Positions 6,896-7,996 of a DNA stretch of 11,728 nt are shown here, piece by piece. The number at the start of each line of letters is the position of its first letter. The first letter of the stretch is position 1. The notes below the pieces were generated by a model that saw only the letters and a list, made by a program, of their open reading frames with translations, had not been told where the DNA came from and did not search any database. The DNA lies in contig JBKPCR010000177.1 in assembly GCA_046727435.1 (NCBI GenBank), positions 1 to 11,728 of the forward strand, written 5' to 3'. A program made the translations under genes and the position numbers. Origin of the DNA: CAVPRW01 sp046727435 [NCBI: bacterium]. GTDB taxonomy: Bacteria > Tectomicrobia > Entotheonellia > J063.

Positions 6896-7117
6896 TTAAT
6901 GGCACGTGCAGGAGCCACAGCCGCAGGAGCCGCCGCCCTCTCCTCCCGAAGAGCCGGATGGGCCGACGCGATCCCCCACCTTTGAACCAAACAGCGAGAA
7001 TTTTTTCTCCAGCAGCCCAGATCCGCAGTTCGTGCATTCCACCTCCGCAGTGCTGGTCATGACCAACTTTTCAAAGTCTCGATTGCATACCAGACAATGA
7101 TATTCGTATATTGGCAT
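6896..7117 (-). CDS. FmdB family zinc ribbon protein with Cys-rich tail
   Basis: This 73-residue protein opens with MPIYEYHC, the hallmark of the FmdB regulatory-protein family. Two CxxC pairs, Cys8/Cys11 and Cys28/Cys31 (ECTNCG), make a small zinc ribbon. After FSLFGSKVG the chain becomes Gly/Ser-rich and ends GGGSCGCGSCTCH, with four more Cys (65, 67, 70, 72) and a final His. The start at 7117 is chosen because the conserved MPIYEY begins there and an AGGAAAGGGA ribosome region lies just upstream; an ATG at 7147 would add ten residues. The family's role is poorly defined; the name comes from proposed regulation of formamidase and amidase genes. The tail could bind a second metal, which is inference. 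Confidence 0.9.
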   Translation of the reverse strand: MPIYEYHCLVCNRDFEKLVMTSTAEVECTNCGSGLLEKKFSLFGSKVGDRVGPSGSSGGEGGGSCGCGSCTCH

Positions 7118-7179
7118 AGCTGGTTCCCTTTCCTGACCACCGCCCACGACCCACCGTCAGGCCCATACAGCATGACACG

Positions 7180-7393: not shown

Positions 7394-7447
7394 GATCAAC
7401 GGCAATGGTGCACACGCACGTTGGGTATCAGTGGCTGAGGAGGACAA

Positions 7448-7996
7448 ATGACTCGGGAAATAACACGCCTTAGCGTTGGCGACTTGGCACCGCCATTCGC
7501 GCTGCAGGCCGGCGACGGCCAAGACATTCGACTCACAGACGTACTCAGCTCTCGGGCAGCCCTGCTGGTGTTCATTCGCGGCACCTGGTGACCGAACTGC
7601 CGCAAGCAACTGGAGCAGTTGCAAACCTATTTACCGATATATCATGCTCTCGGGGCCGAGGTCATGGTTATCGTTGGCCAGCGCGCTGAGAAGGTGGCCG
7701 ATTACTCCTGCGCTCGTAGTCTCGCCTTGCGGATCCTCGTCGATCCAGATCGCTCGGTGATCAAGCGCTATGGGGTCTATCATCGGCTTGGGCTCACGGC
7801 GTTCAACATCGCTCGGCCGGCCACGTTTATCATCGACCGTGCGCAACGCATCCGCTTCATGTATATCAGCAGAGGTCAGTCGGATCGTCCGGATCACGAG
7901 ACGTTGGTAGCCGAGCTTCAGAAACTGCACCTTCCACAACCACCGTCACCTCCCCTTGCGGCGGGCGGTCTTCCAGTTGGGCCCTCACCTCAGTGA
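7448..7996 (+). CDS. Peroxiredoxin-like (AhpC/TSA) selenoprotein, UxxC active site, in-frame TGA read as selenocysteine
   Basis: Read through the TGA at 7589-7591, this frame gives a 182-residue thioredoxin-fold protein. It starts at an ATG with AGGAGG four bases upstream and opens with LSVGDLAPPFALQAGDGQDI, the usual N-terminus of AhpC/TSA-type peroxiredoxins. The active-site segment is LLVFIRGTW-U-PNCRKQL, where U is codon 48 and Cys51 completes a UxxC motif; relatives have Cys at that position (RGxWCPxCRxQL). Conserved fold elements continue after the TGA: AEVMVIVGQ, ILVDPDRSVIKRYGV, the cis-Pro segment RPATFIIDRAQRIRF and a closing helix DHETLVAELQKL. Coding quality is therefore the same on both sides. 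A SECIS-like hairpin lies 3' of the TGA. The expected role is reduction of peroxides or disulfides in the cytoplasm, with the selenol as attacking group. The last 22 residues are Pro-rich and lie antisense to rsmI. A Cys-lineage gene with a nonsense mutation is the main alternative. Confidence 0.85.
7589..7622 (+). promoter_or_regulatory. UGA codon plus bacterial SECIS-like hairpin
   Basis: After the TGA (7589-7591), GCAACTG (7606-7612) and CAGTTGC (7616-7622) form a perfect seven-pair stem capped by GAG (7613-7615). This meets the published description of bacterial SECIS elements as I know it: upper stem of 4-16 pairs, apical loop of 3-14 bases with a G in the first two positions, and 16-37 bases between UGA and loop (21 here). 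SelB would bind the loop to deliver selenocysteyl-tRNA. The fold was judged by eye. Confidence 0.75.

Follow-up and report, generated by a model that had tools for sequence, protein, structure and literature searches.

The window, by which we mean the whole stretch of DNA that was analyzed (11,728 nucleotides), carries on its forward strand a gene for a peroxiredoxin-like (Prx-like) protein whose frame contains one internal TGA codon. Translation from the ATG to the stop codon at 7994-7996 yields 182 residues when this TGA is read through, and the frame holds no other in-frame stop. The read-through product displays the motif RGTW-U-PNC at residues 44 to 51 and gives a single match to the Pfam AhpC-TSA model (PF00578), which covers residues 10 to 137, across the TGA (88.1 bits; cut-off, 26; E = 5.6e-25). 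Gene calling with table 11 produced a 47-amino-acid frame followed by a 125-amino-acid frame that starts at TTG 7619. A first reading, made from the sequence alone (the sequence-only reading), had described one frame with a lone in-frame TGA, a ribosome-binding site ahead of the ATG, and a stub plus a fragment as the product of standard calling; these observations all held, and the AhpC/TSA domain spans the TGA. The features of the gene are collected in Table 1.

Table 1. Features of the Prx-like gene, in window coordinates
Feature	Position	Strand	Basis or remark
Prx-like (AhpC/TSA-fold) UxxC ORF, probable selenoprotein	7448..7996	+	182 aa with read-through, then TGA stop
Ribosome-binding site AGGAGG	7438..7443	+	Printed sequence; 4 nt 5' of ATG 7448
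TGA probably recoded as selenocysteine, residue 48	7589..7591	+	TGA in 44/46 close homologues, TGY in 2
C51, the Cys of the UxxC pair	7598..7600	+	Faces the peroxidatic Cys when aligned with true peroxiredoxins
bSECIS-type hairpin, 7-bp stem GCAACUG/CAGUUGC, apical loop GAG (7613-7615)	7606..7622	+	Hairpin search; family pairing
P124, cis-Pro position of thioredoxin type; true peroxiredoxins have Arg	7817..7819	+	159-row alignment; accessible part of PMC2757866

We compared the codons of the gene with those of its nearest homologue, L123. Differences at codon positions 1/2/3 numbered 18/17/29 in the 45 codons upstream of the TGA and 35/28/65 in the 111 codons downstream. The bias toward third positions was weaker in a comparison with L203 (25/26/33 upstream and 48/40/58 downstream). 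Its presence on both sides of the TGA indicates that the part of the gene after this codon is still under constraint at the protein level.

Downstream, the Prx-like gene converges with rsmI on the reverse strand. The 3' ends of the two genes overlap by 131 nt (7866-7996), and in both the stretch that aligns with homologues extends into the overlap. The window RsmI is 59% identical to its counterpart in a Binatia genome and up to 58% identical to those in genomes of the phylum of L020. In a Methylomirabilota MAG, HIBADH (49%) is the only other window gene that adjoins the Prx-like gene. These similarities gave the host no consistent placement, and it may belong to a different phylum. On the other side lies an FmdB-type zinc-ribbon gene (6896-7147, reverse strand) with a Cys-rich tail, in which both Cys pairs are CxxC; the accessible part of a 2026 review lists a UxxU selenoprotein in the FmdB family (PMC13188914). 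Farther away, a perfect 15-bp inverted repeat (447-461 and 485-499, 23-nt spacer) stands just 5' of a CocE/NonD hydrolase gene that begins at 535. A search of the window against Rfam returned zero matches at gathering thresholds, for this repeat as for the rest.

Codon 48 in homologues and selenocysteine genes in their genomes

Homologues were collected by protein searches that placed no condition on TGA, run in the phyla of four genomes that had been found by a DNA pattern (95 and 149 genomes, samples of 247 and 396). At E <= 1e-18 they yielded 46 homologues from four phyla, five of which (L020, L007, L012, L111, and L011) had already been found by the TGA pattern. Codon 48 was TGA in 44 of them, TGT in one, and TGC in one; we quote the share of Sec forms from these searches, whose phyla were picked for containing such forms. 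In homologues, the codon that faces the in-frame TGA of the gene therefore stands for Sec or Cys, a result that the sequence-only reading had named as support.

The DNA pattern itself, F-x-R-G-x-W-TGA-P-x-C, occurred in at least 117 stretches of genome_contigs and in one of viral_contigs, counts that cover only forms with its fixed residues because the pattern demanded them. Among the 118 pattern matches listed, 105 matched the window protein (blastp, E <= 1e-3, small database) and 13 did not; 103 of these 105 listed stretches align across residues 47 to 60. The sole match in viral_contigs (L001) encodes no such protein and was rejected as a relative, and a protein scan of viral_contigs revealed zero relatives of the window protein.

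The nearest homologue (L020/L123) comes from a Methylomirabilota MAG and is 53% identical over ∼160 residues. L207 and L208, the two Cys forms, read RGTWCPQC and are 38 to 40% identical to the window protein. A quick tree of 159 rows comprised 150 Sec rows, 5 Prx rows, and 4 Cys rows, of which two are ResA-like; its Sec share is inflated because pattern-selected rows were included. The window joined L123 with a support of 94, below the starred level, and many deep forks stayed open. The underlying alignment left out duplicates and rows with fewer than 38 codons before or 95 after the site; peroxiredoxins of the TxxU type are missing from it because their own TGA ends their frame.

Some homologues vary at or around the site. 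In L169 (1789-1833, reverse strand) and L176 (1630-1674, forward strand), both from the search of the phylum of the Binatia genome, the Prx-like genes read U-P-Y-A: the TGA and the hairpin are retained and the second Cys is replaced by Ala, so another resolving partner would be needed. Records labelled as Alphaproteobacteria, Reyranella and Asaia among them, also contain Prx-like UxxC genes (L102, L117, L071, L013, and L027).

Genomes of the relatives were searched for the genes that insert selenocysteine. A selB match over the cut-off was found in 31 of 32 Sec-form genomes (17/18 and 14/14), in neither of the two Cys-form genomes, and in 2 of 14 named controls; in one Sec-form genome (G012), selB was split into two pieces, each below the cut-off. 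For selA, the corresponding counts were 13/13, 0/2, and 1/14 (Escherichia coli). Matches to selD exceeded the cut-off in 12 of 13 Sec-form genomes (G004 fell below), 0 of 2 Cys-form genomes, and 2 of 14 controls, and each of the 12 Sec-form matches over the cut-off has an in-frame TGA of its own. The tRNA-Sec exceeded the gathering score in 15/18 and 13/14 Sec-form genomes and 0/2 Cys-form genomes, in a search that is unspecific near the threshold because 5 of 14 controls exceeded it too; the scores in G004 and G017 (47.2 and 48.6) resemble those of ordinary long-arm tRNAs. All absences in these counts are soft, as the completeness of the searched genomes is not stated.

A hairpin downstream of the TGA codon

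In the window, the UGA lies 21 nt from the loop of the downstream hairpin. According to the accessible part of the 2026 review (PMC13188914), bSECIS elements have an apical loop of 3 to 9 nt with a G in its first two positions, an upper stem of 4 to 16 bp, and a distance of 16 to 37 nt between UGA and loop. The window hairpin (7 bp, GAG, 21 nt) lies within these limits; considered alone, its stability is within chance, 473 of 5,000 recodings with codons from seven other window genes being as stable, and p was 0.045 when the gene's own codons were used (200 recodings). An equally stable hairpin was found for 15 of the 396 TGAs in the window, and other window TGAs likewise have a hairpin plus open flanks. 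The best unconstrained fold of 7589-7640 is a different hairpin (-9.0 versus -7.4), and the folding z of this segment, -0.39 or -1.14 in two computations, is unremarkable overall.

Across the family, we scanned for hairpins with loops of up to 8 nt, leaving out duplicates and rows with fewer than 60 sense codons after the site. A bSECIS-type hairpin was present in 153 of the 155 Sec-form sequences listed, with a mean of -8.1 kcal/mol versus -3.0 kcal/mol in synonymous recodings. Among these 155, 57 reached p <= 0.05 and 128 reached p <= 0.2 (200 recodings each), whereas the following two segments of the same genes gave 21 and 23 at p <= 0.2 (60 recodings each); such p-values overstate the evidence, since the sequences are related. 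The plain folding energy behaved similarly, with a mean z of -0.75 after the TGA, whereas three control segments gave 0.02, -0.11, and -0.05. In other homologues, the loop stands 16 to 29 nt from the UGA.

Covariation was evaluated in 38 sequences, including the window, chosen by eye from 73 for the register of the window, with 35 left out. Here 95.1% of cells were paired, a share biased upward because the rows were chosen for register, and 28 two-sided changes were counted (a number reached by 0 of 500 shuffles). Two-sided changes affected 5 of the 7 stem pairs, and 1 of 500 shuffles also reached 5. A rule-based set of 39 rows, in which the stem starts 14 nt after the TGA, contained 33 double changes and showed pairing in 248 of 273 cells. 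When all 152 distinct Sec-form rows listed were used without selection for register, 736 of 1,064 cells were paired, with 132 double changes; sliding the register left at most 51% of cells paired and at most 85 double changes. How many pairs contain a double change is uninformative in these rows (5, versus 4 to 6 in slid registers). In L074 and L040, titled Actinobacteria/Actinomycetota, the stem is kept as GUAUAUG/CAUAUAC though the encoded residues differ.

Two explanations of the TGA compete with its decoding as selenocysteine. A recent mutation to TGA might have inactivated a Cys-type gene, or the codon might be a sequencing error, and it fits with either that the single TGA is the sole lesion and that the evidence on sel genes comes from the genomes of relatives only. 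However, the same TGA is shared by 44 of 46 close homologues, the third-position bias continues beyond it, and compensatory changes keep the hairpin across the family, which makes inactivation or error very improbable. A host with a changed genetic code would instead read every TGA as another amino acid. The Prx-like gene, in which only that in-frame TGA is passed over, would be compatible with such a code, but table 11 yields complete frames for CocE (586 aa), an NtrC-type protein, an MFS protein (531 aa), and HIBADH, each of which matches its family along most of its length, and the rsmI frame terminates in TGA, so we give a changed code hardly any credence.

Comparison among relatives shows the recoding site, the RNA structure kept by the family, Cys at the same position in genomes where sel genes were not detected, and the geometry of the motif. 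With a probability of about 0.88, we consider that the gene encodes a selenoprotein in which TGA 7589-7591 specifies selenocysteine. The 182-residue selenoprotein proposed by the sequence-only reading is supported by the read-through frame, by TGA or Cys codons in homologues, and by the pairing of the hairpin across the family. In the organism of the window, translation would begin at ATG 7448, and the hairpin at 7606-7622, acting via SelB and the Sec-tRNA, would place selenocysteine at UGA 7589 rather than allow termination; the ribosome would then continue past the UGA to complete the protein.

Active site, known relatives, and probable function

In 140 of the 150 TGA rows of the 159-row alignment, residues 44/48/51/124 are R/U/C/P, as in the window protein, and R44 is conserved in 151 of all 159 rows. 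The five rows with a true Prx motif instead have P/(S or T)/C/R at these positions. Relative to the canonical PxxxTxxC motif, R44 and U48 of the window protein replace Pro and Thr/Ser, C51 is kept, and P124 occupies the place of the catalytic Arg that the five true-Prx rows have. In an alignment to Aeropyrum PrxQ (2cx3), residue 48 stands opposite the Ser of SPVC and C51 opposite its Cys, which we take to be the peroxidatic Cys. The sequence-only reading had assigned the TGA to the position of the peroxidatic Cys, and this proved wrong: it is C51 that falls there, and U48 falls on the Ser/Thr of the Prx S/TxxC motif. Its UxxC motif, U48-P-N-C51, was borne out in the read-through product and in the alignment of homologues. 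Of its description of the protein as peroxiredoxin-like, the AhpC/TSA fold stands, and a peroxiredoxin function is made doubtful by the residues that U48 and C51 face.

The AlphaFold model (pLDDT 91.6) shows U48-P-N-C51 with a helix at 49-67. Among solved folds, PrxQ, Bcp4, and AhpE come closest to it, with ResA-type structures appearing from rank 22. By eye, the window protein has no visible N-terminal signal or anchor. None of the NCBIfam models exceeded its cut-off. The best match, over residues 14 to 110, was to the SelL-related redox protein model (NF040769), at 71.4 bits versus a cut-off of 120; the motif of SelL is UxxU, whereas the window protein has UxxC.

With its UxxC motif and a PF00578 score above the cut-off, the window protein resembles selenoproteins in the accessible parts of two sources. 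The Global Ocean Sampling survey of 2008 describes a "Prx-like 1" family (pfam00578, UxxC) with 225 Sec members and 2,740 Cys homologues (PMC2398784), and the 2026 review lists a "Prx-like thiol:disulfide oxidoreductase" (PF00578, UxxC/UxxU) as a high-confidence prediction (PMC13188914). Because Prx-like UxxC selenoproteins are tabulated there, the window protein is of a kind already described; compared by description, it has in common with both entries the Pfam domain, the UxxC motif, and the exchange of Sec and Cys (PMC2398784, PMC13188914). The proportions differ, Sec forms making up 44 of the 46 close relatives of the window protein versus 225 Sec and 2,740 Cys in the survey (PMC2398784). 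The TxxU peroxiredoxin selenoproteins share its fold and Pfam family, but they have Sec at the peroxidatic position after Thr, whereas the window protein has Sec three residues earlier and Pro at the Arg position. Prx genes with TPGU, in which an in-frame TGA occupies the true peroxidatic position, occur in L145, L148, L150, and L152, from genomes of the phylum of L020. The proteins ResA, TlpA, and CcmG combine CxxC and a cis-Pro with an extra helix-strand insertion in the fold, as the accessible part of PMC2757866 describes. They are like the window protein in the thioredoxin-type pair and the cis-Pro, ResA-type structures match its model at 23 to 25% identity, and the ResA model matches 50 of 50 members of set A1 at E <= 1e-5; however, the window protein scores 43.3 bits versus a ResA cut-off of 170, and Sec replaces the first Cys.

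The position of U48 at the Thr/Ser of TxxC, together with Pro in place of the catalytic Arg, makes this a UxxC site of thioredoxin type carried by a peroxiredoxin fold. A thioredoxin-type pair and Pro would make a disulfide or selenenylsulfide reductase more likely than a classical peroxidase, and we rather favor a role as disulfide reductase, which rests on the motif, over the objection that the closest folds are those of peroxidases. We infer the direction of the redox reaction, the substrate, and the donor from there: the enzyme would most likely alternate between a reduced selenol/thiol form and an intramolecular selenenylsulfide, and a thioredoxin-like donor would most likely supply the electrons with which it reduces disulfides (or small oxidants). 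A serious rival, which concerns function only and shares the selenoprotein reading, is a Sec peroxidase in which Sec48, at a non-canonical position, attacks hydroperoxides and Cys51 resolves. PrxQ, Bcp4, and AhpE as best solved folds are what such an enzyme would lead one to expect, the conserved R44 adjoins the site and could activate the selenolate, and a thiol peroxidase model matches the protein. This match, at 43.7 bits, is nevertheless far under its cut-off of 140, and the catalytic Pro, Thr/Ser, and Arg of peroxiredoxins are R44, U48, and P124 in the window protein, so that we regard a Sec peroxidase as possible but on the whole somewhat improbable.

A literature search retrieved no name for the RGTW clade, which does not show the clade to be nameless. 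More tentatively, and at slightly less than even odds, the RGTW-U-PxC clade may constitute a distinct, nearly Sec-obligate family, from mostly uncultured phyla (Acidobacteriota, Methylomirabilota, and others), that is missed by current annotation models and has a thioredoxin-type UxxC/cis-Pro site on a peroxiredoxin scaffold, its Cys form being confined so far to two genomes that yielded no sel genes. The gene reported here adds a well-supported selenoprotein gene, which standard calling would split, like related genes, into a stub and a fragment. The available pairs of Sec and Cys forms (RGTWUPxC versus RGTWCPQC) could be used to measure what selenium contributes at a site of thioredoxin type.
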